NCBI GenBank assembly: GCA_016199935.1 | Contig: JACQFS010000111.1 | Span: 1-41,007 of the forward strand | Direction: 5' to 3' | From: Verrucomicrobiota bacterium | GTDB taxonomy: Bacteria; Verrucomicrobiota; Verrucomicrobiia; Limisphaerales; JACQFS01 | DNA length: 41,007 nt | In this document: positions 7,030 through 34,246 of the stretch, one piece after another | How the letters are laid out: every line of letters starts with the position of its first letter | Position numbering within the stretch: the stretch's first letter is position 1 | Program-made: the position numbers and the translations under genes | Notes under the pieces: generated by a model | What the model saw: the letters and a program-made list of their open reading frames with translations, nothing else | Database searches by the model: none | What the model was told of the DNA's origin: nothing

Positions 7030-7150
7030 CCGCCCCGGACCGCGAGCCGTCCCGGCTCGCAGCGGCCACGGTGACGGAACGAGCTATCAACTTTCCAAGC
7101 CATGTTACATTCGTAACCGCTGCGGGCCGGGACGGCCCGCGGTCCGGCGG
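7030..7150. repeat. Long inverted repeat made of two hairpins
   Basis: Arm 1 (7030-7065) contains the hairpin GCGAGCCG-TCC-CGGCTCGC. Arm 2 (7117-7150) contains GCGGGCCG-GGA-CGGCCCGC. Arm 2 is almost the reverse complement of arm 1 (for example CCGGACCGCG, CCGTCCCGGC, CGCAGCGG), with a spacer of about 51 bp. This twin-hairpin layout is typical of REP/BIME-like intergenic repeats. It lies upstream of rpsA and downstream of the Ig-domain gene, both on the minus strand. Nothing else is seen in 6780-7185. Confidence 0.75.
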
Positions 7151-20567: not shown

Positions 20568-22169
20568 ATGAAAAAGCTCCTCACTCTGCTTGCCCTCTTC
20601 ACCGCTGCGTCGTTCGCGACCAACGCCCACGCCGCCGCCCGGCCCAACATCATTTACATCCTCTGCGACGACCTCGGCTACGGCGACGTGAAGGCGCTGA
20701 ACCCCGACGGCAAGATCGCCACGCCGAATTTGGACAAGCTCGCCGCAGGCGGGATGATTTTCACCGACGTGCATTCGTCGTCCTCGGTCTGCACGCCCAC
20801 GCGTTACGGCATCCTGACCGGCCGCTACAACTGGCGCACCAGGCTCAAGAGCGGCGTGCTCGGCGGCCTCAGCCCGCGGCTCATCGAGGACGGGCGACTC
20901 ACCGTCGCGGACCTGTTGAAGCAAAACGGCTACGCCACCGCGTGCATCGGCAAGTGGCACCTCGGCATGGAGTGGGTGAAGAAGGGCGAGGTGTCTGAAC
21001 TCAACATCGAGACGCGCGAGCAGGCGTTCAATGTGGATTTCACCAAGCCGATCAAGAACGGCCCGCTCGCCGTCGGGTTCGATTATTATTTCGGCATCGC
21101 CGCGTCGCTCGACATGGTGCCCTACACGTTCATCGAGAACGACCGCGTGACCGTGCTGCCGACCGAGGACCGCAGGCTCGACATGATGACGGGCCGCGAG
21201 AACTGGTTCACGCGCGAAGGCCCGGCCGCGCCCGGCTTCACCGGCTACGAAGTGCTGCCGACGCTCACGAAGAAGGCCGTCGAGTATATCGCCGCACACG
21301 CAGCCGAGGCGAAAAAGGGCAAGCCGTTTTTCCTCTACCTGCCCCTCAACGCGCCGCACACGCCGATCCTGCCGACGCCCGAGTGGCTCGGCAAAAGCGG
21401 GCTGAATCCCTACGCCGATTTCGTGATGGAGACGGATCATCACATTGGCCTCGTGATGGCGGAGTTGGAAAAGCAGGGCCTCGCGAAGGACACGCTCCTC
21501 ATCGCGACAAGCGACAACGGCTGCTCGCCCTCGGCGAAGTTCGATGAACTCAAGGCCAAGGGGCACAACCCCAGCTTCGTCTTCCGCGGCCACAAGGCGG
21601 ACATCTTCGATGGCGGGCATCACATCCCGTTCATTGCGCGCTGGCCCGCGCAGGTGAAGGCCGGCTCGAAGTCCGATCAGCTTCTCTGCCTGTCCGACTT
21701 CATGGCGACGGCGGCGGAAATCATCGGCGCGAAACTTCCCGCCACCGCCGGCGAGGACAGCGTGAGTTTTCTTCCTGCGCTCCTCGGCAAGGACAAGGCA
21801 CCGCTGCGCGAGGCCATCGTGCATCATTCCATCAACGGCTCCTTTGCCATCCGCCAGGCGAACTGGAAACTCGAACTCACGCCCAGCTCCGGCGGCTGGA
21901 GCGAGCCGCGCCCGAACTCGCCCGCGGTCGCCGGCCTCCGGCCGATCCAGCTCTACGACCTCGCGACGGACATCGGCGAAACGAAAAATCTCCAGGCCGA
22001 GCATCCCGAGATCGTCTCGCGCCTGACGAAGCTGCTGGAGAAATACGTCGCCGACGGCCGCAGCACGCCCGGCGCGAAGCAGGAGAACACCACGCCCGTG
22101 GACATCTGGAAGGCCGGCAAGGAAGCGCCGGGCGCGGCGAAGAAAAAAAAGGCGAAGAAGGACGCGTGA
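20568..22169 (+). CDS. Secreted sulfatase, CTPTR active site
   Basis: 533 residues. A signal peptide (MKKLLTLLALFTAASFATNA, cut near HAAA) is followed by an alkaline-phosphatase-fold sulfatase: metal Asp pair in NIIYILCDDLGYGDV, active-site Cys in SSSVCTPTRYGILTGRYNW (Cys codon 20790-20792, converted to formylglycine), GKWHLGM, LPLNAPHTPI and ATSDNGCSP. The tail is Lys-rich (APGAAKKKKAKKDA). It removes sulfate esters from glycans or small molecules outside the cytoplasm; the formylglycine-generating enzyme is not in this window. First gene of a plus-strand operon: its stop overlaps the next gene's GTG by 4 nt. Substrate not predictable. Confidence 0.95.
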   Translation: MKKLLTLLALFTAASFATNAHAAARPNIIYILCDDLGYGDVKALNPDGKIATPNLDKLAAGGMIFTDVHSSSSVCTPTRYGILTGRYNWRTRLKSGVLGGLSPRLIEDGRLTVADLLKQNGYATACIGKWHLGMEWVKKGEVSELNIETREQAFNVDFTKPIKNGPLAVGFDYYFGIAASLDMVPYTFIENDRVTVLPTEDRRLDMMTGRENWFTREGPAAPGFTGYEVLPTLTKKAVEYIAAHAAEAKKGKPFFLYLPLNAPHTPILPTPEWLGKSGLNPYADFVMETDHHIGLVMAELEKQGLAKDTLLIATSDNGCSPSAKFDELKAKGHNPSFVFRGHKADIFDGGHHIPFIARWPAQVKAGSKSDQLLCLSDFMATAAEIIGAKLPATAGEDSVSFLPALLGKDKAPLREAIVHHSINGSFAIRQANWKLELTPSSGGWSEPRPNSPAVAGLRPIQLYDLATDIGETKNLQAEHPEIVSRLTKLLEKYVADGRSTPGAKQENTTPVDIWKAGKEAPGAAKKKKAKKDA

Positions 22170-22333
22170 AGCGGAAGGTCAAAGGCCAAAGTTCAAAGCT
22201 CAAGGGAAGCTCCAACTTCAAGGAGCGAATCTCCAGCAAGCCGGAGCGGTGGCGCGGATGGTTTGGAGTCTGGAGCTTGGCGCTTCCCATGAGCTTTGGC
22301 CTTTATGCTTTGAGCTTCACTCCCGCCATTGCA
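22166..22333 (+). repeat. Leader repeat A (inverted repeat encoding a signal peptide)
   Basis: An imperfect inverted repeat. AAAGCTCAAGGGAAGCTCCAA-type left arm (22195-22215) pairs with 22277-22297 at 19 of 21 positions. The whole segment is the 5' coding part of the next gene: n-region K-V-K-G-Q-S-S-K-L-K-G, then W-R-G-W, then h-region LALPMSFGLYALSF. DNA and protein are clearly related to copies B (30936-31082) and C (32447-32593), which sit at the start of unrelated genes. Confidence 0.8.
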
Positions 22334-23233
22334 GACAACTCCTTCGCCTACGCGCCCGGCGAGCAGGAAATTTACCGTCACATTTTCGACACCACGAACG
22401 GCTGGGAAATGGACAACGGCCTGACATTCGTCGCCAACGGCGAACTGCTCGGCGTCCCGAACACGAACTGGATGAAGGCCACGCACTGGTTCGAGGCGCC
22501 GCTCGCGTTCGACGAGGGCGAACTCAACGCCTACTGGAGCCTGCGCACCGACGCGGCGCAGGGCGAGGACGGCGCCGCGGTTTATTTCCGCCTCAATCTC
22601 ACCAACACGCCCGGACTCATCGAGCAGTTCAACTTCACGCTGAGCGTCCGCCCCGGCCAATTCGGCGGGCCGCCCCTCCACGCCGGCCACTGGTATCTCT
22701 ACGTGGACCCCGGCTATTTCATCCCGCACACCGCCGAGTCCGACCTGCAACCGGCTGTCTCCTTTCTCGCGACGAACCAGTGGGAAAATTTTCGGCTGCG
22801 CATCCGCAAGACCGACACCAACACCGTGGAGCTGACGCCGTTCTGGTGGAACCGCACCTCGTCGCTGTGGGAGCAAATCGCCGGGCAATCCGGCAGCGCT
22901 TCGCCGCTCATCGCGAACATCGCGACGCAAATGGACGGCCTTCAGTCCCTTTACGCCGTCGAGTTGCAATTCTACCAGGCCACGCCCGCCGTGGACGCCG
23001 TGGCCGTCACGCGCCGCGAGCCGGCGCCGCGCGTGACGAAAATTGGCAATGCCGGCGGCGCGCTCACCCTCGACTGGACGGGCGGCAACGCCCCGTGGCT
23101 CGTCGAACGCAGCACCAACCTCGCGTTGCCCGCCGGCGGCTGGACGGCCGTCCGAACGAACCAGACCAACACCGGGACCTTCAGCGTCGGCACGACCGAA
23201 CCACGATCGTTCTACCGAATCCGCGGGCAATGA
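22166..23233 (+). CDS. Secreted jelly-roll-type protein with repeat-derived leader
   Basis: 355 residues, start GTG overlapping the sulfatase stop (GTGA). The first ~56 residues are a repeat-encoded leader that looks like a Sec signal (Lys-rich, then LALPMSFGLYALSF, cut near TPAIA). The mature part begins APGEQEIYRHIFDTTNGWEM and is a beta-rich LamG/jelly-roll-like domain (about 60-290). The C-terminal domain has the pattern WLVERSTNLALPAGGW ... SFYRIRGQ that is frequent at C-termini of secreted proteins in this phylum. No catalytic motif recognised. Between two sulfatases it may bind the sulfated glycan. ATG codons further in would cut the leader, so GTG is preferred. Confidence 0.7.
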   Translation: MKRKVKGQSSKLKGSSNFKERISSKPERWRGWFGVWSLALPMSFGLYALSFTPAIADNSFAYAPGEQEIYRHIFDTTNGWEMDNGLTFVANGELLGVPNTNWMKATHWFEAPLAFDEGELNAYWSLRTDAAQGEDGAAVYFRLNLTNTPGLIEQFNFTLSVRPGQFGGPPLHAGHWYLYVDPGYFIPHTAESDLQPAVSFLATNQWENFRLRIRKTDTNTVELTPFWWNRTSSLWEQIAGQSGSASPLIANIATQMDGLQSLYAVELQFYQATPAVDAVAVTRREPAPRVTKIGNAGGALTLDWTGGNAPWLVERSTNLALPAGGWTAVRTNQTNTGTFSVGTTEPRSFYRIRGQ

Positions 23234-23264
23234 CGTCAAAGTGGTTGCCGAACCACCCTGAATC

Positions 23265-24728
23265 ATGAAAGCAACGCTGCGAGTTCTCCTCTGGCCACTG
23301 GCGCTGGGCGTTTGCGCACTTGCCTCGTTCGCTGCGCCGCCCAATTTCCTAATCGTCGTCGCCGATGACCTCGGCTACGGCGACCTCCGCTGCTACGGCG
23401 ACGCGAGCATTCACTCGCCCAACCTCGACCGCTTCGCCGCCGAGGGGCTGAAGCTCACGAGCTATTACGCCGCACCCAATTGCTCGCCCTCGCGCACGGG
23501 GATGATGACCGGGCGCATCCCGTCGCGCGCCGGCATCACCGACTGGATTCCGCAGCTCTCGCCGATGCACGTCCGCCGCGGCGAGACGACCGTCGCCACG
23601 CTGTTGCGCCGCGCGGGTTACGCGACGTGCCTCAGCGGCAAGTGGCATCTCAACGGCGGTTTTGAAATGCGCGACCAGCCGCAGCCAAACGACCACGGTT
23701 TCGATCACTGGTTCGCCACGCAAAACCTCGCGCTGCCCAATCACCGCAACCCGACGAATTTTTTCCGCAACGGCCAGGCCGTCGGCCCGCTGCAAGGTTA
23801 CGCCGCTGACCTCGTGGCTGACGAAGCCATCCGCTGGCTCGGCGAATTGCGCGACAAGTCGAAGCCATTCTTCCTCTACGTCGCCTTCCACGAACCGCAC
23901 GAGCCGATCGCCACCGCGAAGAATTATGTGGACCTCTATCCCGCCAAGGAGCCGAGCTACGCCGACCATCACGGCAACATCACGCAGCTCGACGCCGCGT
24001 TCGGCCGGCTCCTGCGCGCGCTCGATGCGCAGGGCCTGCGCGACACCACGCTCGTTTTCTTCACGAGCGACAACGGCCCCGCCATCACGCCGATCCACCC
24101 GCACGGCTCGGCCGGGCCGCTGCGCGAGAAGAAGGGGCACGTTTATGAAGGCGGCATCCGCGTGCCGGGCCTCGTGCGCTGGCCGGGGCGCGTCCGCGCC
24201 GGTTCCACCTCCGACACGCCCGTGAGCGGCATGGACATTCTGCCGACGCTGTGCGAACTCGCGGGCGTCACGCCGCCGCGCGAGCGCAAACTGGACGGCG
24301 TGAGTTTCGTTCCGCTCCTCGATGGGAAAAATTTTGCGCGCCCGCAGCCGCTCTTCTGGCATTTCTTCCGCGCCGTCAGCGAGCCGAAGGTCGCGATGCG
24401 CGACGGCGACTGGAAACTGCTCGCCCGCCTCGACCAGCCCAACCCTTCCAAGCCGAATCACATCACCGTCGAGGATCAGCGCGCATTGAAGACCGCCGAA
24501 CTGACCACCTTTGAACTCTACAATCTGCGCGACGACCTCGGCGAGACGCGCGACCTCGCGGCGAAGGAACCGGCGCGGCTGGCGGGGATGGTCGCGCAGA
24601 TGCAGAAGCTCTACCACGAAGTCCGCGATGAATGCCCCGAGTGGCCGGCGTGGGAGTTCGCCAACTACGACGGCCCGCGCATCGAGTGGCCGCCGTATTG
24701 GAAGCCCAGGGGCGGGGCGAAGAAATGA
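23265..24728 (+). CDS. Secreted sulfatase, CSPSR active site
   Basis: 487 residues. Signal peptide VLLWPLALGVCALASFAAPP, then sulfatase motifs: NFLIVVADDLGYGDLRCYGD, active site AAPNCSPSRTGMMTGRIPSR with canonical C-x-P-S-R for formylglycine formation, SGKWHLNGGF, VAFHEPHEPI and FFTSDNGPAI. The C-terminal subdomain ends with the usual 'W...Y.DGPRIEWPPYWKPRG' block. Third gene of the plus-strand sulfatase operon, 31 nt after the jelly-roll protein gene. Different subfamily from the first sulfatase (A-type GYGD start, shorter tail), so the two likely attack different sulfate positions of one polymer (inference). Confidence 0.96.
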   Translation: MKATLRVLLWPLALGVCALASFAAPPNFLIVVADDLGYGDLRCYGDASIHSPNLDRFAAEGLKLTSYYAAPNCSPSRTGMMTGRIPSRAGITDWIPQLSPMHVRRGETTVATLLRRAGYATCLSGKWHLNGGFEMRDQPQPNDHGFDHWFATQNLALPNHRNPTNFFRNGQAVGPLQGYAADLVADEAIRWLGELRDKSKPFFLYVAFHEPHEPIATAKNYVDLYPAKEPSYADHHGNITQLDAAFGRLLRALDAQGLRDTTLVFFTSDNGPAITPIHPHGSAGPLREKKGHVYEGGIRVPGLVRWPGRVRAGSTSDTPVSGMDILPTLCELAGVTPPRERKLDGVSFVPLLDGKNFARPQPLFWHFFRAVSEPKVAMRDGDWKLLARLDQPNPSKPNHITVEDQRALKTAELTTFELYNLRDDLGETRDLAAKEPARLAGMVAQMQKLYHEVRDECPEWPAWEFANYDGPRIEWPPYWKPRGGAKK

Positions 24729-24734
24729 TCGCGC

Positions 24735-25334
24735 CTATTTTTCTTTGCCCGTTGGGATCGTGATCGTGGAGATGGAGCCATTGCTCTCGAACTTTTTGCC
24801 AAACGAGAGCGTCACCTTCACCGCGGCGTCCTTCACGTTGGGAACTGTCACGGTCGGCGGCGTGGTGTAGCCCGCGCCGCCGCTGACGACCTCGTAGCCG
24901 ATCACCACGCCATTTTGCACGAGCGCATTGGCGACGGCGGGCGTGTGCTTCCAAAGATTCCGGCTGCCGGGCGGGTAGCGGTAGAAGTTCGAAACTTCAT
25001 CGAGCCGGTCATTCGTGATGCCATGCTTGCCGAGCGCCGCCATGAGGACGGCCTTGTTCGCGCGCGCCTCGTCGCCCGTCGGCCCGCCGCTTCCCGGCCC
25101 GGCGGGATGGACGCGGCTGAACGCCTCGCGAAAAACTTCCGACGTGACTCCAAGCGCGGAGGCGACCAGCACCACCGGCCGGCCGTGGTCGCGCGGATCG
25201 GTCTCGTGGCCGCCGGAGATGACGACGGGCACGCGCGTGACGTCCTTCGGGAGTTCCTTGTTCGCGGCGGGCGCGGAGAGAGTTGCGAAGACGATCGTCA
25301 CGGCGACGATGGCGGAGTGAAACGGGTTGGTCAT
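24735..25334 (-). CDS. Secreted conserved hypothetical protein
   Basis: 199 residues from ATG 25334, with signal peptide FHSAIVAVTIVFATLSAPAA. The mature part has PVVISGGHETDPRDHGRPVV, RANKAVLMAALGKHGITNDR, LDEVSNFYRYPPGSRNLWKH and a C-terminal beta part VSGGAGYTTPPTVTVPN. I have an impression of this 'SGGHETDPRDHGRPV...RLDEVSNFYRY' type from planctomycete/verrucomicrobial genomes but know no function. The GxGYTTPPTV block resembles short beta repeats of surface proteins. Convergent with the second sulfatase gene, only 6 nt apart. It follows the PQQ-propeller gene on the same strand by 38 nt, so the two probably share a transcript. Confidence 0.7.
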   Translation of the reverse strand: MTNPFHSAIVAVTIVFATLSAPAANKELPKDVTRVPVVISGGHETDPRDHGRPVVLVASALGVTSEVFREAFSRVHPAGPGSGGPTGDEARANKAVLMAALGKHGITNDRLDEVSNFYRYPPGSRNLWKHTPAVANALVQNGVVIGYEVVSGGAGYTTPPTVTVPNVKDAAVKVTLSFGKKFESNGSISTITIPTGKEK

Positions 25335-25372
25335 GTTGGCGAGTCGGTGAGTGAGTTTGGGAATTTGAAACC

Positions 25373-26713
25373 TCACTGCGCGCCCGAAGCGGAGATGCAA
25401 TAGAGGAATTTGTCCGAGCGCAGGAAGAGTTCGTTGCCCACGATGGCCGGCGTGCCGTTGAACTGGCTCGCGTCACCCGCGAATTTGTTCTCCGCCACGA
25501 TCTCGAACTTCGGTTTCGCCGTCACGACAAACGTCCCACTCTTCCGGCTCACCGCGTAATAATTTCCATTCGCCAGCACCGGCGAGGCGTAGAACGGCTT
25601 GCCGCCACCGCCCCGCCCGCCGCCTTTTCCACCGCCACCACCGCCGCCGCCACCGCCGCCACCGGACACGCGCTCCTTGTAAATCACCGCGCCCGTCTTC
25701 AACTCCATGCACGTCGCGAAGCCCGCGTCGTTCACCACGTAGAGCCGGCCCTCGTGCAGCACTGGCGACGGAATGTAGCTGCTGTTCGCGCTCTCCCACG
25801 CGAGGTGCGTCTTGGTCACGTCGCCCTTGCCGCCCGCGCGCACGGCCACCGAGCCGGTCTTGGGAAAACCGCCGGTGGTGAAAATCAATCCGTCCGCCGC
25901 GACGACACTCGGCGAAACGTTGCCGGGCAAACCCGTCTGCGCGAACCAGCGCAGCTTGCCGGTGTCGGGATTCAATCCCCAGATTTCCTCCGCGACGGAA
26001 ATCACGAGATCAGTGCGGCCCTCGGCCGTGATGAGTGTGGGCGTGCCGTAGCTCAACTCGAGCGAGTCCGCCTCGGCCTTCCAAAGTTCCTTGCCGGTCT
26101 TCGCGTCGAGCGCGCGGATCGAGCGGCTCTCCTCGGAGGAATTCACGATCAGCTTCTCGCCCACGAGCATGAGGCTCGAGCCGGAACCCCAGCGGCGGTT
26201 GCCGGACGACTTGCCCACATTCACTCGCCACAATTCCTTTCCGCTCAAATCAAACGCGAGCACGCCGGTCTTGCCGTAGAAAACATAAACGCGCTCGCCA
26301 TCGCACACCGGCGTGCTGCTCGCGTAACCGTGCTCGGTGAGCATCCCGCTGTAAGGATCCTCCGCCGTGGTCGCCAGCGTCGGCTGATCCCATAAAATTT
26401 TCCCGTCCTTGCGGTTGAGGCAGACGAGATGCCGCGCGAGTTTGTCCGGCGACCCGCCCGCCGCGCCGTCGCCGTAGCCGGACCAGCACGTCACGAACAC
26501 GCGCTCGCCCACCACGATGGGACTCGACGAACCGGGCCCGGGCAGCGCGATCTTCCATTTCAAATTCTCCGTGTCGCTCCACTTCACCGGCGGCTTCGCG
26601 CCGGCGGCGATGCCTGCGCCATCGGGACCGCGGAAGCGCGGCCAGTCGGCGGCGCGGGAAAAGCTGGCGGTGAGAGCGAGCAATGCGGCGAGGGCGAGTG
26701 AGGAAATTTTCAT
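25373..26713 (-). CDS. PQQ-like beta-propeller protein
   Basis: 446 residues from ATG 26713. Signal peptide SSLALAALLALTASFSRAAD, then WPRFRGPDGAGIAAGAKPPV, the usual start of 'PQQ-binding-like beta-propeller' proteins in this phylum. Repeats of the form 'LVCLNRKDGKILWDQPT', 'RALDAKTGKELWKAE', 'GLNPDTGKLRWFAQT' mark the blades. A Gly-rich loop of about 25 residues (25596-25672, nearly all Gly/Lys/Arg) is inserted between two late blades. It is not a full quinoprotein dehydrogenase; a scaffold or pseudo-enzyme role at the cell surface is likely. Its long Gly tract may be a linker or an expansion-prone site. Confidence 0.85.
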   Translation of the reverse strand: MKISSLALAALLALTASFSRAADWPRFRGPDGAGIAAGAKPPVKWSDTENLKWKIALPGPGSSSPIVVGERVFVTCWSGYGDGAAGGSPDKLARHLVCLNRKDGKILWDQPTLATTAEDPYSGMLTEHGYASSTPVCDGERVYVFYGKTGVLAFDLSGKELWRVNVGKSSGNRRWGSGSSLMLVGEKLIVNSSEESRSIRALDAKTGKELWKAEADSLELSYGTPTLITAEGRTDLVISVAEEIWGLNPDTGKLRWFAQTGLPGNVSPSVVAADGLIFTTGGFPKTGSVAVRAGGKGDVTKTHLAWESANSSYIPSPVLHEGRLYVVNDAGFATCMELKTGAVIYKERVSGGGGGGGGGGGGKGGGRGGGGKPFYASPVLANGNYYAVSRKSGTFVVTAKPKFEIVAENKFAGDASQFNGTPAIVGNELFLRSDKFLYCISASGAQ

Positions 26714-26756
26714 GGGCGTAGCTTGGTTGACGCGCGGTCGAAAGGCGAGGTTGCAA

Positions 26757-26882
26757 ACTTGTTTCGTGTAGCAGCCGACGTAAGGAGGCTCTGACTTCTC
26801 TTTCTCATTCCGCACTCCGCACTCCGCATTTCAATTTTCAAAGTGAGCCTCCTTACGTCGGCTGCTACCACACGAAACAAGT
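26757..26882. repeat. TAGC-family inverted repeat, best-preserved copy
   Basis: Arms of about 40 bp: ACTTGTTTCGTG + TAGCAGCCGACGTAAGGAGG + CTC on the left and its near-exact reverse complement on the right (26848-26882), differing mainly by 2-3 extra bases. The spacer of about 55 bp contains TCCGCACTCCGCACTCCGCA. It lies between the PQQ-propeller start and the EF-hand protein's stop. Copies or half-copies: 559-631, 3612-3628, 17801-17868. Confidence 0.9.
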
Positions 26883-26909
26883 GCGGAGCCGGCTGCCCCG
26901 GCCCCGCAC
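26881..26909 (-). terminator. Hairpin after the EF-hand gene
   Basis: GTGCGG/CCGCAC with inner GCCGG/CCGGC, 18 nt past the stop of the EF-hand gene. On the minus strand it is followed by TTGTTTCGTG, only partly T-rich, so it is a moderate terminator candidate. It overlaps the edge of the inverted repeat by two bases. Confidence 0.4.
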
Positions 26910-26927
26910 TGGCTCGCGTGGGGTTGA

Positions 26928-27611
26928 TTACTGCTCGGCCGGCGGACGTTGCTGACGGCCGGGGCGCTCGCCCGGTTGGCCGTTCGGAGCACCGTTGCCT
27001 TCGCCGCGCGGACGGCGCGGGGCATCGGCGTTGTCGCCGCCCGGAGGACGCTCGCCCTGCGGGCCACCGACGCCGGGACGGCCTTCGCCGCCGGGTCCGC
27101 CGGGTCCGCCGAAGCCACCCTGACCGCCCTGGCCACCCTGGCCACCCTGGCCACCCTGGCCACGCACGCCTTGCGGACGCGGCGGCATCAGTTCGTCCAT
27201 CGTGAGTTTGCCGTCGTTGTTTTTGTCGAGCTTCTTGAGCGCGGCGGTGGCATTCTTCATTTCGGCTTCGTCAATCACGCCGTCGCCGTTCACGTCGAGC
27301 GCGGCGATGATGGGCGGGATCATCCGGCGCTGGCCGTCGCCGCCGGGACCGCCCGGACCACCGGGGCCGCCGGGACCGCGTTCGCCCTGCTGGCCGGCTT
27401 CGCCGCGCGGTGGGCGCTGACCGTCCGTGGGCGCACCGTCGGGACGGCCGCGGAATTCACCCTGCGGCGCGCCGTCGGGACGCCCCTGGCCGGGTTGACC
27501 TTCCGCCCCGGGGCGGCGGCGCGGATTGTCGTTCGGTTGGTCTTGCGCGAGACTCGTCCAGACCGACGCGCTGAGCGCGAGGGCGGCGAGGAGTGTGGTG
27601 TGTGTCTTCAT
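26928..27611 (-). CDS. Secreted EF-hand protein with Gly/Pro-rich arms
   Basis: 227 residues. Signal peptide [20 protein letters not shown]. Then a Gly/Pro/Arg/Gln-rich arm with [13 protein letters not shown], a paired EF-hand (about 98-145) with calcium loops [12 protein letters not shown] and [12 protein letters not shown], and a second Gly-rich arm with four GQGG units (a 9-bp tandem repeat at about 27129-27166) and [10 protein letters not shown]. Both loops keep the Asp at 1, Asn at 3, Asp/Asn-Gly at 5-6 and the final Glu, so calcium binding is likely. The collagen-like arms lack strict Gly-X-Y periodicity. Possibly a calcium-dependent matrix or structural protein; no partner is evident. 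The tandem repeat may vary in copy number. Confidence 0.85.
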
Positions 27612-28164
27612 GGTGTCTGGCCTTTCGTTGGTTGTTTGATTTGAACTGTTGGTTGATCTGGCCGCCCGCTCGGGGTGGCGTCATTCGTTACACATGAGGA
27701 GACGCCCCTCACGTAAAGCTTCGATGCGCGCGGCTTGGCAAAATTGTTAAGCCGGTGTAAATGCCGCCGGCCCCGCGAAATGGCGTGCCGCGGTTTCATC
27801 AGCGGCTGCGCGACCCGACGGAAACGGGGCCGCCGGATTTCATCACCGACTTCGCCACGGACGCCACCGGCGAAACGCCGAGGCCATCGCGTTTCGATGA
27901 CGGCGCGGAAGAATTCGCGCCGGCCTCGCAAAAGCGCAGGAGGCAGAAGCTGCGGAAGAGGTTGACTCGTTGAAGGACTGGATTGCTGGCATTCATGTTT
28001 GATTTGCGGAACGGCGACCACCGCCGCTCACTGTGCCGTCATCAAACCATCCGCCCGTTAAGCCCGTGTGTGGGCCGGCGTGGGAAATTGAAAAGGGAGT
28101 GTAAAATCCTTCACCATCGGACCGGGCACGCGCAGCCGCCGCGGCGGGCGACGGCCAACCGGCC
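27612..28164. other. Intergenic region, no convincing gene
   Basis: 553 bp between the EF-hand gene start and the transporter gene stop. Short open frames exist on both strands but none has a start context, signal or recognisable motif. A small imperfect palindrome ACATGAGG...CCTCACGT (27692-27714) lies about 80 nt upstream of the EF-hand ATG and might be regulatory or another repeat remnant. The promoter of the EF-hand gene should be in 27612-27720. Confidence 0.5.
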
Positions 28165-29523
28165 TCATTCCACTTCCGCAGGAGCAAGCGGCTGGCGCAG
28201 ATTCGCGCGCAACGTCTCCGGCGTGACCTCCTTCTCCCACCGGCTGATCGCGACGGTGGCCACGCCGTTGCCGATGAAGTTGGTGAGGGCCCGGCATTCG
28301 CTCATGAAGCGATCAATGCCCACGAGCAGCGCGAGCGACTCGACCGGAATGCCGGGCACGGCCTGCAACGTCGCCGCGAGCGTCACGAAGCCCGCGCCCG
28401 TGACGCCGCTCGATCCCTTCGAGGTGATCATCGCGATCACGAGCAGGCTGATCTGCGCGCCGAGGCCGAGCGGCGTGTTGGTCGCCTGCGCGAGGAAGAC
28501 GGCGGCCATCGCCATGTAGATGTTCGTGCCGTCGAGATTGAAGCTGTAGCCGGTCGGCACCACGAGGCCCACGGTGGATTTCGCGCAGCCGAGCCGCTGC
28601 ATCTTTTCGATGAGCCCCGGCAGCGCCGTCTCGGAGGAACTGGTGCCGAGCACGAGAAACAACTCGTCCTTGATGAACGCGAGGAAGCGAAAGATCGAGA
28701 AGCCGCACCACAGCGCGATGCCGCCGAGCACGACGACAACGAACAATCCGGCCGTGAGATAAAAGCCCGCCATGAGCGCGAGGAGCCTGTTCAGCGCGCC
28801 GAGGCCGTAGCTGCCCACCGTGAAACCCATCGCGCCAAACGCGCCGATGGGCGCCGCCTTCACCAGGATGTGCATGACGCCGAAGAAAACCTGCGAGCCG
28901 TATTCGATCACGTGCAGCAGCGGCTTCCCGCGCTCGCCCATGAACGCGATGGCGAACGCGACGAGCACCGCGATGAGCAGGACCTGAAGCAGATCGCCCG
29001 ACACGAACGCGCCGAGGAAGGTGTTGGGAATGATGTTGAGGAGGAAATCGGCCGTGCTGAGCGAGTGCGCCTTTTCGCCGAAGCCGTGGCCGGTGTCCGC
29101 GTCCTTCGCCGCGACGTGAAACGTCTCGCCCGCCGGCGTGATGCCGACGCCGGGCTGAAGGACATTCACCACCACGAGCCCGATGAGGAGCGCGATGGTC
29201 GAGACGATTTCAAAATAGAGGAGCGACTTGATCCCGATGCGCCCGAGTTTTTTCAGGTCGCCCATCGAAGCAATGCCGTGGACGACGGTGCAGAAGATGA
29301 TCGGCGCGATCATCATCTTCACGAGCTTGATGAAGCCGTCGCCGAGCGGCCGGAGGGATTTTCCGAATTCAGGAAACTCGCGCCCGACCACGATCCCCAG
29401 CGCGACCGCGATGAGCACCTGAAGGTAGAGCACGCGATACCACGGCTTGCGCGCGGGTGCGGATGAGTTGACGGGTGTCACGGGGCGCGCGAAGTGAGGC
29501 ACGCGAGCCGATGACTTGTCCAC
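28165..29523 (-). CDS. DctA-type dicarboxylate/amino acid:cation symporter
   Basis: 452 residues, inner-membrane carrier of the DAACS family. Eight or more hydrophobic segments plus two re-entrant loops. Diagnostic blocks: the Ser-rich hairpin [16 protein letters not shown], the substrate/cation helix [40 protein letters not shown], and [20 protein letters not shown], which resembles DctA (C4-dicarboxylates) more than GltP because of the Asn-Phe-Ile-Gly-Asn-Gly ending. It imports organic acids with H+ or Na+. The N-terminal ~28 residues are polar and may be an over-extended start; the first helix begins at [12 protein letters not shown]. It starts 26 nt after the phosphoesterase stop, so it is probably the last gene of the YHYH/sulfatase operon. 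Confidence 0.93.
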
Positions 29524-29549
29524 GGAAAAGATGCGGACCGCACAAGGTC

Positions 29550-31082
29550 TCAGCGCGGGCGGACTGCGTAGGTGTGCGTCACGCCCCCGGTCTTGCGTTC
29601 GCCGCCCTCAACGTCGGCCGGATAAGCTCGGACGTATTCGACGAGGGCTTGTTCCGGCGCGACCGTGACGCGCAGGATGCCGGAGCTGCCCTGGAGCACG
29701 CCGCTGCGGTAGCCGTATTCCGCGGCGCTGCGGGTGTTGTCGGCGCGCGAATGGCCGGGCTGCGGAACTTCCTGATAAACGATTCCGTCGCGTTCCTGTT
29801 TCGCGTAGAGATGGTCGTGGCCGTGGAACACGATGCTCGCGCCATGCTTCACGAGCAGATCGTGGATCGGCGCGGGCCAGCCGGGGCGCTTCTGCGCGAA
29901 CGAATTCTTCCCGTCAATGTCCTTGCCGCCCCACTCGAAAAAGTGCGACGCCTCGGAGCCGCCGCGGCCTTCGCGCGTTTCGCCTCCGACAAGGTGGTGC
30001 AGGAAGATGAATTTGAATTTCGCCTTGCTGGTTTCGAGCGTGCGCTTGAGCCACTGGTATTGCTCCGCGCCGAGCGTGCGGCCCCAGTTGTCCACCGCGC
30101 CGCCGTCGCCGCGACCGCGCGGGCGTTCGGAATACCAGAACGGGTCGAGCACGATGAACAGCGCGTCGCCCCATTCCCACGCGTAGTAATTCTCCAGCAG
30201 GCCGAGTTGCGGATGCGGCGTCTGGTTGCCGGTGTAGAAGTCGTTCGGCGTCGGGTTGGGGAAATACTTTCTCCGCATCGTGTTTGACCAGAAGGCCATC
30301 TCATCCGTGCCGCCGCCGCGCGCCGCCTGTTCGCCGTCGTGGTTGCCGAGCACGAGGAACACCGGCGCACTCACGCCGACGAGTCCGAAATAGTAGCGCT
30401 GCGCCAGATACTGCGGCGCGGCCAGCTTGTAGTCGGTGTATTTGTCCGTCATGAACGTGTCGCCGAGATCAATGTGGAAATCCGTCTTCGCCGCGAGTGC
30501 GTTGGCGAGGGATTTTTTGTAAGCCTCGGTGTCCACGCCGAAATCGAGATGCGAATCCGCCTGCACGGTGAAGGTGAACGTGCTGCCCGACGGTCGCGCG
30601 GTGATGAAGGTGTATTCCGCGCTGCTGCTGACGCTCGCCGCGCCCGCCGCGCGCGAGCGGAGCTGATAGTAATAGCGCGCGTTCGGCTGGAGCGAACTGA
30701 TGAGCAACTCGACGGGCTCGCCCTTCGCGAACTTCTGCTTCGGCGTTTCGCTGGTGAACTTTCCCGGCTGCGTGCCGTAGGCGACGTAACCCTCGGTGTC
30801 GGCATACGCGAGCACGCTCAACGTCACTTCGTTCTTCGTCGGCCGGCCTAGAATCAAATCCACCGGATGCGCGGGCACTTCGGTGCGGAATGCGGGCATG
30901 GGCATTTTGATTTCGCCGCGGCCGGAGTCGCGTGGGGCGGCAAGGCTCAAAGGACAAAGGCTGAAGCTCAAGGGAAGGACCCAGACGAAAGCACCAAGCC
31001 ATCGCGAAGTCGGGCGCTTGAAGCTTAAGTTTTGGACCTTGGACCTTCCCTTGAGCTTTGACCTTTGACCTTTGACCTTCAC
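29550..31082 (-). CDS. Secreted metallophosphoesterase (purple-acid-phosphatase-like)
   Basis: 510 residues. The first 49 are a repeat-encoded leader: [11 protein letters not shown] then [15 protein letters not shown]. An Fn3-like domain follows (about 70-165, [14 protein letters not shown] ... [11 protein letters not shown]), then a calcineurin-like metallophosphatase domain with the metal ligands in [40 protein letters not shown] and [14 protein letters not shown]. It hydrolyses phosphomonoesters or diesters outside the cytoplasm; substrate unknown. Its ATG overlaps the sulfatase stop by 4 nt (ATGA). The pairing with a sulfatase suggests joint stripping of sulfate and phosphate from a polymer. 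Confidence 0.9.
30936..31082 (-). repeat. Leader repeat B (inverted repeat encoding a signal peptide)
   Basis: AAGCTCAAGGGAAGGACCCA (30964-30983) pairs with the reverse complement of 31039-31058 at 18 of 20 positions; outer arms repeat CAAAGG/CCTTTG units (TGACCTTTGACCTTTGACC). As the first 49 codons of the phosphoesterase gene it aligns without gaps to the 49-codon copy C, with 30 of 49 residues identical. Confidence 0.85.
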
Positions 31083-32593
31083 TGCTTCTTCCCCTTCTTG
31101 CCCTTGCCGCCGCGCTTCGCATCCGGCGGCACCTGGCCGGGCGGGAGGTTCGCGTTGATGGTCGGCATCTGCGCGCTGACCGCGGCGAGATTTTCGGTGA
31201 GGCGACGGTCGAGTTCGGCGACCTTGTCGGGCATCTGCTTCGCGAGGTCATTGCGCTCGGCGAGGTCTTTGGACAAATCGAAGAGACGGCGCGCGCCCGT
31301 TTCGTAGATGCGCATCAGCTTGAAATTGCCGAGCAGAATCGCCGACGCCGGACCGTCGGCATCCTTGTCGTAGTGCGGGAAGTGGATGACGAATTCTTCG
31401 CGCGGGCGTTTCACCGCGCCCTTGCCGCCGCCGGTGAGCAACGGCACGAGACTCCCGCCCTCGACGCCGCGCGGCAGTTCGCGCACGCCCGCAAGCTCGG
31501 CAATCGTCGGAAACAAATCCGTGCCGCTCACGCGCGCGCGGCTGCAAATGCCCGGTGCGACGCCCGGCCCCGCGATGAGCAACGGCACGCGGATGCCGCC
31601 GTCCCACACGCCGCCCTTGCCGCCGGTGAGCGGCACGTTCCTGCCCTGCGAGCCGTGGTCGGGCGTGTAAATGACGTAAGTGTTCTCGGCGATGCCGAGT
31701 TCCTTGAGCTTCACGAGCAGCAGGCCGACGGTCGTGTCCATGTCCTCCATCACCGCGATGTCCACGAGGCCCCTGTCGCGGCCCGCGTTGCCGCCTCGCG
31801 CGGCGGCGCGCTGCGTCACTGACGCGAGCGTTTCCTTCAACGCCCCTTCCGGCCCGCGTCCGGCGTAGTGGCAGACCTGGAGATAAAACGGTTTCCCGGC
31901 CTTGGCCTGCCGCGCCATGAAATCCATCCCGAGCCGCGTGATGGCGAACGCCTGCTTCGGATTCGGCGTCTCGACGTTCTCGGGGCCGCCGTTGTTGTTC
32001 GGACCGTCCGTCTCGTCGTAACCATGCTCCTTCGGGCTAACGCGGCCGACGTGCCACTTGCCGAAGTGCGCCGTCGCATAGCCCGCGCGCTTGAGCAGGC
32101 CGCCAATCATCACCTCGCTCGCGGGCATTTCCATCAGGGGCCGCGGCGCGTTCACCCGCGCGCCCGCCACGCTGCCGTTGTCGCCGCGGCCCTCGTTCAC
32201 GAACGTCATGTGCAACTGCGCCGGGCTTTTGCCCGTGAAGACGCTCGCGCGCGACGGCGTGCAGCGCGGCGACGGCGCGTAGGCGCTGGCGAAGCGCATC
32301 CCCTGTGCCGCGATGCGCTCCAGATTCGGTGTGCGAACGATGTCGCCCTTCGACGCCGGCGCCGTGTCATCCATCTGAATCGAAGTGCTCGCCCAACCCT
32401 GCCCCTCGCCGAAGATGAAAAGGAAGTTCGGGCGCGACGCCGCGTTCGCGGCGAAGCTCAAAGGACAAAGTTCAAAGCTCAAGGAAAGGGCCAAGGCCAA
32501 AGCTCCAAGCCAACGCGCCGCCGGCAGCTTGGAACTTGAACCTTGGAGCTTGGTGCTTCCCTTGAGCTTTGAGCATTGAGCTTTGAACTTCAT
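31079..32593 (-). CDS. Secreted sulfatase, CTPSR active site, repeat-derived leader
   Basis: 504 residues from ATG 32593, which overlaps the PEBP stop by 4 nt. Residues 1-49 are the repeat leader (K-F-K-A-Q-C-S-K-L-K-G ... ALSLSFELCPLSFAA). The sulfatase domain starts FLFIFGEGQGWASTSIQMDD, with active site SPRCTPSRASVFTGKSPAQL (C-x-P-S-R), FGKWHVGRVSPKEHG, QVCHYAGRGPEG and IYTPDHGSQGRNVPLTGGKG. This 'GEGQGWASTS' subfamily lacks the second Asp of the usual N-terminal DD pair, so its metal site may be shifted. The Lys-rich C-terminus ([10 protein letters not shown]) resembles that of the first sulfatase. Followed by the phosphoesterase in the same coupled operon. Confidence 0.93.
   Translation of the reverse strand: MKFKAQCSKLKGSTKLQGSSSKLPAARWLGALALALSLSFELCPLSFAANAASRPNFLFIFGEGQGWASTSIQMDDTAPASKGDIVRTPNLERIAAQGMRFASAYAPSPRCTPSRASVFTGKSPAQLHMTFVNEGRGDNGSVAGARVNAPRPLMEMPASEVMIGGLLKRAGYATAHFGKWHVGRVSPKEHGYDETDGPNNNGGPENVETPNPKQAFAITRLGMDFMARQAKAGKPFYLQVCHYAGRGPEGALKETLASVTQRAAARGGNAGRDRGLVDIAVMEDMDTTVGLLLVKLKELGIAENTYVIYTPDHGSQGRNVPLTGGKGGVWDGGIRVPLLIAGPGVAPGICSRARVSGTDLFPTIAELAGVRELPRGVEGGSLVPLLTGGGKGAVKRPREEFVIHFPHYDKDADGPASAILLGNFKLMRIYETGARRLFDLSKDLAERNDLAKQMPDKVAELDRRLTENLAAVSAQMPTINANLPPGQVPPDAKRGGKGKKGKKQ
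32447..32593 (-). repeat. Leader repeat C (inverted repeat encoding a signal peptide)
   Basis: TTCAAAGCTCAAGGAAAGGG (32471-32490) pairs with the reverse strand of about 32550-32573 (GCTTCCCTTGAGCTTTGA); the ends carry further CTTTGAACTT/AAAGTTCAAAG units. It forms exactly the first 49 codons of the sulfatase gene. Related to copies A and B and to the orphan fragment at 13354-13377. Confidence 0.85.
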
Positions 32594-34246
32594 TTCGGCT
32601 CTCCCTTTTTGTTTCCGCCCGCGCCGCCGGGGCGCGTGTAGGTCACCTTCAACTCGGCGCTGTCGAGAATCGAATCCTTGATGGCGGTGAGCAGCACCTC
32701 GCGCGTGACTTCGCGTTGCGGCTTGTCGAGTTGCGGCGGCGCGGAGAGCGCATAGACGTGGAGCGTGTAGGTCTTGAGGCCCGGTCCCTGCGAATGCGGC
32801 GGTTCGTAGCCGAGCGCGCCTTTGAAACCGGGGCCGAGCTTGCCGATGTCGCGCGCGTTCTTCGGCAGGCTCGTCACGCTCGCGGGGATGTCCCACATCG
32901 TCCAATAGCACTTCATCACGTTGCCCGGCGCGAGATGGTCCATGACGATGGCGAAGCTTTTCGTGCCGGCGGGCGCGCCCTCCCAGGCGAGCGGCGGAGT
33001 CACCCCCTCGCCATCGCCGGTAAACTCCGCGGGCAGCGCGGCGCCATTGGCGACGACGGGACTGGTGAGAATAAAATTGCCGCTGCGCTTCGCATTGAGA
33101 ATTGGCGGTTTTCTGACCGCCTTTTCCCTTCGGGTCGCCGCCGGGACCGCGCTGGCGCGGCGTGTAGGTTTCGGTTTTCACCTGGCCGCGGCCGTCCACG
33201 AAATCAAACTTCACGGACTTGTCGTCATTGACCACGTAGTTCACCAAGCGCGTCTCGCTGCCGACTTCGTATTTGAGACTGTAACTCTTGTCCTTCGACG
33301 TGAAGGCGGTGATGCGCGCGCCACGCAACGGTGCGCCCGCCTCGCGCACCGGCTGCGCGCGCGGTTGCGGGTCCACGCCGCCATTCGCTTCGGTGATCTC
33401 GCCGTGGAAGCCGCCATTCACGTAGGGATACTTCGTCGAGCCGTGATAGTGGTAGCCGAGCGCGGGCGTCTCGTGGCCGTTGAAACTGTCGAGCTTCGCG
33501 GGCGCGGAGCCGTCCGGCTCGGTGAGTCCGTAAATCGGATAGCCATCGAGCGCGAAAGCGATGGGCAACGACTTACCGAGCACGCTCTGCAAATGCAGCG
33601 GCGCGGCATGATAGTGGTAGTCGTCCGCGCGACCACAGTGGCCGCCCCATTGATCGAGTTCGCCAATTTCCTGCGAGACCTCGCCGCGATTGTTTTGCGG
33701 ATTGAAAATCGGAATGCCGTTCGCCGCGAGCGCGATGGCGCCGCGCAGGAAACGATTCTTGATGGACGCAGGATTTTTCGACGGCACCGGGTTGAGCGGG
33801 ATGCGCCACGCGTTGTCGCCGGTGTAAGGCTGCGGTAGCGGCACCTGCTGTTGCCACGCGGTGATGCCGACCATCATGTTGTGCGCGGGCATCCCATCGG
33901 ACTCGACGTAGAGGAACTGGGCGTCGGAGCGCGTCTTCACCTTTGGCGCGAAAGGTGCGAACGAAGCGGCAACGCGTGACGCCGGACTGGAAATTGGACC
34001 CGCCGCGCCGGTTGCTGGGCCGGCGGCAGCGAGCAAGGGTTGGCTTGGGCTGGCGGAGGCCAGAAGAATGACGCGCCGGGCGTCGTCGTGATTGCGGAGC
34101 ACGACGCCCACCGGTGGCTTCACGCTGAAATCGTAGCGACGTGCGCGGCCGTCGTGGGATTCGTCGCCGATGATGTGCGCGGAGACGAACTGTGCTGAGG
34201 CGTAGAAAACGAGCGCGCAGGCGGCGGAGAGTTCGAGCAGTTTCAT
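32590..34246 (-). CDS. YHYH-domain protein with C-terminal PEBP domain, frameshifted
   Basis: From ATG 34246: signal peptide LLELSAACALVFYASAQFVS, an N-terminal part, then the YHYH domain (about 120-290) with FLRGAIALAANGIPIFNPQN, WGGHCGRADDYHYHAAPLHL, FALDGYPIYGL and LGYHYHGSTKYPYVNGGFHG. Near 33100 the frame turns to Arg-rich nonsense, while another frame carries GNFILTSPVVANGAALPAEF then a complete PEBP/YbhB-type domain (TPPLAWEGAPAGTKSFAIVM, DHLAPGNVMKCYWTMWDIP) ending GGNKKGEPK at 32590. A hairpin GGCGGT-TTTCTG-ACCGCC (33104-33121) lies at the switch. Either a small palindrome insertion broke the gene or there is a sequence error; without it this is one secreted YHYH-PEBP protein. The stop is coupled to the sulfatase start; the ATG is 29 nt after the upstream gene. 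Confidence 0.8.

Follow-up and report, generated by a model that had tools for sequence, protein, structure and literature searches.

A palindromic repeat of about 140 nt, composed of tandem 7-nt units, was found in the place of the predicted signal peptide in no fewer than 18 genes of a draft genome of the Verrucomicrobiota (5.03 Mb, 260 contigs, 97.7% complete, 4.3% estimated contamination), with a start codon (ATG or GTG) on or close to its edge and an A-x-A-type site behind it, and the same leader DNA is present on non-homologous genes. Probably, it represents a spreading signal-peptide cassette that was born from a structural repeat, refined by selection and copied from gene to gene. The window, i.e., the whole stretch of 41,007 nt that was analysed (contig C201), carries copies 1 to 3 described below.

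Copy 1 (32452..32591, minus strand) is the exact 5' end of a minus-strand sulfatase gene (31079..32593; 504 aa, PF00884 at residues 55-370), of which it encodes residues 1-47. Its inverted repeat consists of two 57-nt arms (32453-32509 and 32535-32591) with 77% complementarity and a gap of 25 nt; with a covariance model E-value of 1.1e-28 and some 49 genomic copies, chance falls far short as an explanation, and the inverted repeat of the preliminary description is real. In the coding direction, the first arm (32535..32591, minus strand) is built of AAAGNNC heptads and encodes the Lys-rich n-region MKFKAQCSKLKGSTKLQGS, and the second arm (32453..32509, minus strand) is built of GNNCTTT heptads and encodes the hydrophobic h-region ALALSLSFELCPLSF, with TGT (Cys) in place of the TGA of the plain unit. 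The sulfatase ATG at 32593-32591 (minus strand) opens MKFKAQCSKLKGSTKLQGSSSKLPAARWLGALALALSLSFELCPLSFAANAASRPNF, and translation from this codon yields MKFKAQCSKLKGSTKLQGSSSKLPAARWLGALALALSLSFELCPLSF followed by AANAASRPNFLFIF, that is, the Lys-rich arm and then the hydrophobic arm ending in SFA-ANA. A signal peptide is predicted from the ATG to A48 (32450..32593, minus strand), with predicted cleavage at the SFA / ANA sites. The K-L-K-G-S reading proposed for the first arm was recovered (AAGCTCAAGGGAAG at 32556-32569, minus strand), but the L-P-L-S-F reading proposed for the second arm is absent from copy 1, where CTTTCCTTGAGCTTT reads L-S-L-S-F, and is present in the sister copy at 30941-31080 (CTTCCCTTGAGCTTC).

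This sister copy (copy 2; 30941..31080, minus strand), likewise a covariance model match, is the leader of a calcineurin-like phosphoesterase gene (29550..31082, minus strand; 510 aa, PF00149), the GTG start of which overlaps the stop of the upstream sulfatase gene. Copy 3 (22174..22319, plus strand), also matched by the model, provides the leader KRKVKGQSSKLKGSS...LALPMSFGLYALSFTPAIA of a plausibly exported protein of 355 aa without Pfam match, whose gene (22166..23233, plus strand) has a GTG start overlapping the upstream stop as well. Other repetitive features of the window are a perfect 24-nt inverted repeat (GTAGCAGCCGACGTAAGGAGGCTC) at 26768-26868 with 53 nt between the arms, which resembles a GTAG-tagged REP pair, a GC-rich 36-nt inverted repeat (89% complementary) at 7035-7147 that is unrelated to the heptad palindrome, and a collagen-like 9-nt periodicity at 27036-27422, which probably reflects Gly-x-y coding on the minus strand.

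The arms are formed by tandem 7-nt units (AAAGCTC, AAGCTCC, AAGGACC and relatives) that are mirrored around the loop. Since 7 mod 3 equals 1, each arm gives one heptapeptide cycle in all frames: (AAAGCTC)n is translated as KAQSSKL in every frame and its complement as EL*ALSF in every frame, and the corresponding pairs are KLQAPSS/GAWSLEL for AAGCTCC, KGQRTKD/VLCPLSF for AAAGGAC, and KHQAPST/GAWCLVL for AAGCACC. NAN and NTN codons being reverse complements of each other, the mirror image of a Lys/Gln-rich arm is rich in Leu/Phe, and due to the reverse complementarity of the arms a Lys/Gln-rich part comes first and a Leu/Phe/Trp-rich part second on either strand. The "right frame" that the preliminary description had demanded is therefore dispensable, as in arms of 7-nt tandem units all frames give Lys and then Leu.

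The proposed six-frame scoring against shuffled palindromes was carried out for 46 copies, with signal-like translations defined by a simple charge and hydropathy rule. Signal-like frames amount to 12.3% in the real copies, 6.3% (sd 1.3) in shuffles that keep the palindrome, 0.9% in plain shuffles, and 1.9% in random genomic 140-mers; composition-matched palindromes thus reach about seven times the value of plain shuffles. Over the 46 copies and six frames, the charge contrast between first and second half is +3.9 for the real copies versus +1.07 (sd 0.12) for palindrome-keeping and 0 for mononucleotide shuffles, and the respective hydropathy contrasts are 1.88, 1.92 and 0 (plain shuffle). The hydropathy switch results wholly from composition and palindromy, and the charge contrast alone is specific to the real units. 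That palindrome geometry yields export-signal-like translations is borne out by these values, and this positive-then-greasy peptide is apparently the reason why the repeat forms export signals.

With a covariance model built from 13 copies, 9 of them leaders, at least 49 distinct copies were identified in the genome, a lower bound since 150 of 1569 candidates were scored. All 49 were read with their flanks: at least 18 are N-terminal leaders, 2 are short matches inside ORFs, and the remainder is intergenic or ambiguous, the leader fraction of 18 out of 49 being biased by the 9 leaders among the 13 training copies and by the scoring of only 150 of the 1569 candidates. N-terminal calls rely on hand-checked translations with start codons inferred from sequence; the automated caller was dropped as a statistic, its null having flagged 58% of random windows. 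A start codon lies at most 10 nt from the repeat edge in 16 of the 49 copies, compared to about 2% expected under an assumed 0.9 genes/kb, and in many of these 16 the start reads ATGAA or GTGAA, the G being shared. Half of the leaders (9 out of 18, two of which are cut by a contig end) belong to sulfatases. The others are found on pectate-lyase-like, BNR-repeat, phosphoesterase, DUF3999 and 3-keto-disaccharide hydrolase proteins, and a few on proteins without family; all 18 leader-bearing proteins are recognisably or plausibly exported, and their actual export and cleavage are presumed from the leader sequences. The two matches inside ORFs are short heptad stretches in frame within a histidine-kinase-like ORF (C195:686, 686-757 of locus L206) and a flavin-oxidoreductase-like ORF (C240:657, 657-721 of locus L208), both resembling Rickettsia palindromic elements (RPEs). 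One intergenic copy (L169, C126:15792) begins an open frame with ATGAAG that runs for about 48 codons up to the start of the next gene, and is perhaps a stranded leader.

The genome contains 74 PF00884 sulfatase matches in 5 Mb. In a repeat-blind count, for which all PF00884 genes were listed and the starts of 69 inspected, about 10 heptad-palindrome leaders were observed. Within 170 nt before the mature start, a strong palindrome (z > 5) occurs in 13 of the 69 own sulfatases, a few of these palindromes being situated upstream of the leader, versus none of 44 homologues elsewhere. These homologous sulfatases (mostly about 50-62% mature identity) carry ordinary signal peptides without resemblance to the repeat, which argues that the repeat takes the place of the signal peptide and is no addition to it; most orthologues of a second repeat-led sulfatase have ordinary signal peptides, too. 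Heptad-looking h-regions were also noticed in the sulfatase signal peptides at C55:71818, C55:100449, C27:43016, C138:4051 and C132:16506, either with different heptads (LLNTEHWILNTS, FTDYCLLVTP, FVIRHSSFVIF) or with the second arm alone (MKPILAILLSFELCSLSFASG), and the phenomenon may be wider than the modelled repeat family.

Leaders are shared between genes independently of the proteins they precede. Those of the pectate-lyase-like and sulfatase genes are 87% identical in DNA, with 24% identity of the mature proteins, and leaders on non-homologous genes (pectate-lyase-like, BNR and others) generally show about 80-87% DNA identity at about 21-33% mature identity. In case of the sulfatase of copy 1 (W32) and a sulfatase of G002, a genome of the same order, the mature parts are 44-45% identical and the leaders 74% (aa) or 83% (DNA), and a 74%-identical orthologue pair has leaders that are only 39% alike. 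For 14 of the 18 sense leaders the nearest relative is another sense leader (p 1e-7), and the similarity excess of leaders in the same orientation has a mean of 13.7 (permutation sd 1.7), a value reached in 0 of 5000 permutations. A symmetric palindrome would equally allow similarity in mirror orientation; the leaders are instead alike in coding orientation. The leaders of G002 match those of the window genome in orientation (p 0.008); for the leaders of G125, the orientation match is below significance (p 0.13). Three sulfatase leaders additionally share DNA outside the palindrome, TTCGC(C/G)GCGAACG, which encodes F-A-A-N-A.

The leaders differ from the silent copies in the properties of their coding strand. 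Signal-like sense strands were observed for 17 of the 18 leaders, a figure owed in part to the definition of leaders as open frames; this does not apply to the antisense strands (0 out of 18) and the intergenic strands (14 out of 56), which differ from each other (Fisher p 0.016). For 11 leaders of two other genomes, 10 sense and 2 antisense strands are signal-like. With the plain unit, a TGA recurs at intervals of 21 nt. In leaders of the AAAGCTC type, TGT-CC (or TAT) occupies the TGA site of the sense arm, and the antisense arms mostly keep TTTGAG; stop loss is one-sided in the G002 leaders as well, by other changes (TTTGGCC, TTTGCCC, TTTTGCC). A derivation of TGTCC by point mutations was considered and dropped, since the AAAGGAC unit has GTCCTTT as its complement and a swap of units is thus as likely. 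Units that are hydrophobic and free of stops are over-represented in the sense second arm compared to the antisense (p 0.002) and the intergenic strands (p 6e-5). The second-arm frame ending in S-F-A is used by 16 of the 18 leaders (p 2e-6), and an A-x-A-type site at the repeat edge, just past the repeat, occurs in 17; the positive n-region and hydrophobic h-region that belong with it in a Sec signal peptide were scored by the simple rule in 17 of 18 leaders. Loss of palindromicity in leaders compared to intergenic copies is not significant (p 0.18). Other frames and orientations are hence not equally common at gene starts, as the single frame of the 16 leaders and the strong effect of orientation indicate. 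The assumption of the preliminary description that no selection on the protein sequence is involved finds no support in view of the difference between sense and antisense strands, the stop loss in the sense arm and the A-x-A-type sites, and we infer that selection is the cause of the sense-strand tuning.

The following course of events would account for these observations. Due to the frame independence of the heptad cycle and the reverse complementarity of the arms, a copy adjoining a gene start can supply a near-ready Sec signal peptide. Some repeat copy would have been domesticated in this way, after which selection, acting on the sense strand only, may have eliminated stops and increased hydrophobicity. 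The coding version, comprising start codon, two arms and cleavage site, would then have been copied in coding orientation onto genes of other exported proteins, where it presumably replaced the signal peptides of the recipients; transposition, gene conversion and template switching are candidate routes of this copying.

Of the other explanations considered, an exchange of leaders among paralogous exported-protein genes that needs no mobile element and proceeds by ordinary homologous recombination or gene conversion is a possible but rather doubtful one. The likeness of the three sulfatase leaders beyond the palindrome (the F-A-A-N-A DNA) is in agreement with it, related sulfatases could trade leaders, and gene conversion among sulfatase paralogues is conceivable. 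However, it leaves the dispersed intergenic copies aside, and it does not fit leaders that are common to non-homologous genes, with DNA identities far above those of the mature proteins. A main role of the repeat as a start-codon RNA hairpin that controls translation or stability, with the signal-peptide reading being secondary, is unlikely. The sense-strand leader RNA does fold at -83.4 kcal/mol (z -5.7, matched by none of 200 shuffles), and the stem begins directly after the AUG; yet neither the coding-specific stop loss nor the restriction to exported proteins is predicted by such a role, and no Rfam family matches within 22000-33000. Covariation as a sign of a selected RNA was discarded, as compensatory changes were observed in only 2 of 27 base pairs.

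A purely structural repeat, from which export signals arise without protein selection as by-products of the landing site, appears improbable as well. The signal-like translations of composition-matched palindromes (6.3% compared to 0.9% in plain shuffles) and of a quarter of the intergenic strands (14 out of 56) speak in its favour, and it may describe the first step only; the sense and antisense counts, the concentration of stop loss in the sense arm, the use of one frame by 16 of the 18 leaders and their coding-oriented kinship are at odds with it. Starts were predicted from sequence, so the repeat could in principle be a 5' UTR with the true starts located downstream, but such an annotation artefact is highly improbable: in the sulfatases, about 3-10 residues lie between the repeat end and the Pfam domain (repeat end at residue 35-56, domain start at 51-60), and because of this short distance the sulfatases would, without the repeat, lack the signal peptide of their homologues. 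The cassette that is tuned by selection and copied between genes therefore is the reading we prefer.

Within the order, matches to the repeat (E <= 0.001, stricter filters) were found in 51 of 146 genomes and 36 of 93 genera; elsewhere in the phylum they are few and weak. Most of the nine copies read in G002 are leaders, mainly on sulfatases, and one is a leader on a TonB receptor. Two N-terminal copies of this genome, one with a Tat-like SRREFLK motif (L215, G002:C62) and the one at the TonB receptor, may precede another signal, and a copy in G024 (L329, G024:C6) precedes, in frame, a prepilin-type FTLVELLVV leader. A few copies are leaders in G125 and G102. In G036, 15 copies were read and not one was called a leader, even by a permissive caller; recruitment as a leader is thus not inevitable. 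The repeat termini are GAAG...CTTC, without GTAG or CGTC tag, at a length of about 140; with regard to MITEs (ERIC, RU-type), inverted repeats are present, and no target-site duplication was evident in flanks that were read by eye and unsystematically. An origin from plasmids or phages was rejected, as no DNA match to the leader repeat was obtained in plasmid or phage collections, and so was mobilisation by RAYT, with no heptad palindrome located within about 1.5 kb of four Y1 transposase genes (PF01797).

The repeat shares features with several known systems. RPEs (Ogata et al. 2000, via PMC10969869, PMC3733652) are likewise dispersed palindromes of about 100-150 bp with many copies that occur in frame in protein genes, namely in unrelated metabolic genes at tolerant positions (PMC10969869, PMC3733652). 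Compared to RPEs by description only, the present repeat differs in providing the predicted N-terminal export signal of secreted proteins and in its 7-nt tandem units; as to the in-frame insertion of RPEs within ORFs of otherwise intact genes, the observations here are leaders in frame at the N-terminus and a pair of short ORF-internal matches. Among the precedents found, RU-2 in Yersinia comes closest: it makes up a portion of one predicted signal peptide, the homologues of which have unrelated signals (Delihas 2007, PMC2759123). In contrast to RU-1/ERIC and RU-2 (PMC2759123), which concern mainly one gene and a part of the signal, here the entire predicted signal peptide of at least 18 genes is concerned, with sense-strand-specific tuning and probable transfer between genes in addition. 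PARCELs (palindromic amphipathic repeat coding sequences; PMC2996958) resemble the repeat as dyad-symmetric coding repeats in membrane and surface proteins that spread by shuffling, but they are tandem domains of lipoproteins with separate signal peptides. The REP/RAYT system with its GTAG and CGTC repeats (PMC3733652) also comprises dispersed bacterial palindromes, Verrucomicrobia included; REPs, however, are 20-40 bp long and carry GTAG/CGTC tags, whereas the repeat described here is untagged, heptad-based and about 140 nt in length. The pairing of middle-A with middle-T codons known from sense-antisense hydropathy complementarity (PMC2206014) explains the switch from Lys to Leu/Phe, with the difference that here the readings of both strands are joined in a single polypeptide by a hairpin, and the period of 7 nt renders the effect frame-independent. 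A heptad palindrome as the whole signal peptide of many genes is described in none of the open-licence papers that were found.

The origin of signal peptides, and their turnover, which is faster than that of exported proteins, is an open question that is addressed by this repeat. A 7-nt period combined with a palindrome mechanically makes the layout of n-region and h-region, and does so in many natural replicates within one genome; with these replicates and the silent intergenic copies as controls, the steps from a structural repeat to a selected export signal become measurable. Protein targeting also joins the functions that short repeats can seed. With about even chances of being right, one may speculate that a selfish or structural palindrome has become a transferable cassette, each insertion of which is pre-adapted by the heptad-palindrome geometry as an export signal in any frame and orientation, and for which bacteria of this order repeatedly swap the signal peptides of their exported enzymes, even between bacterial families.
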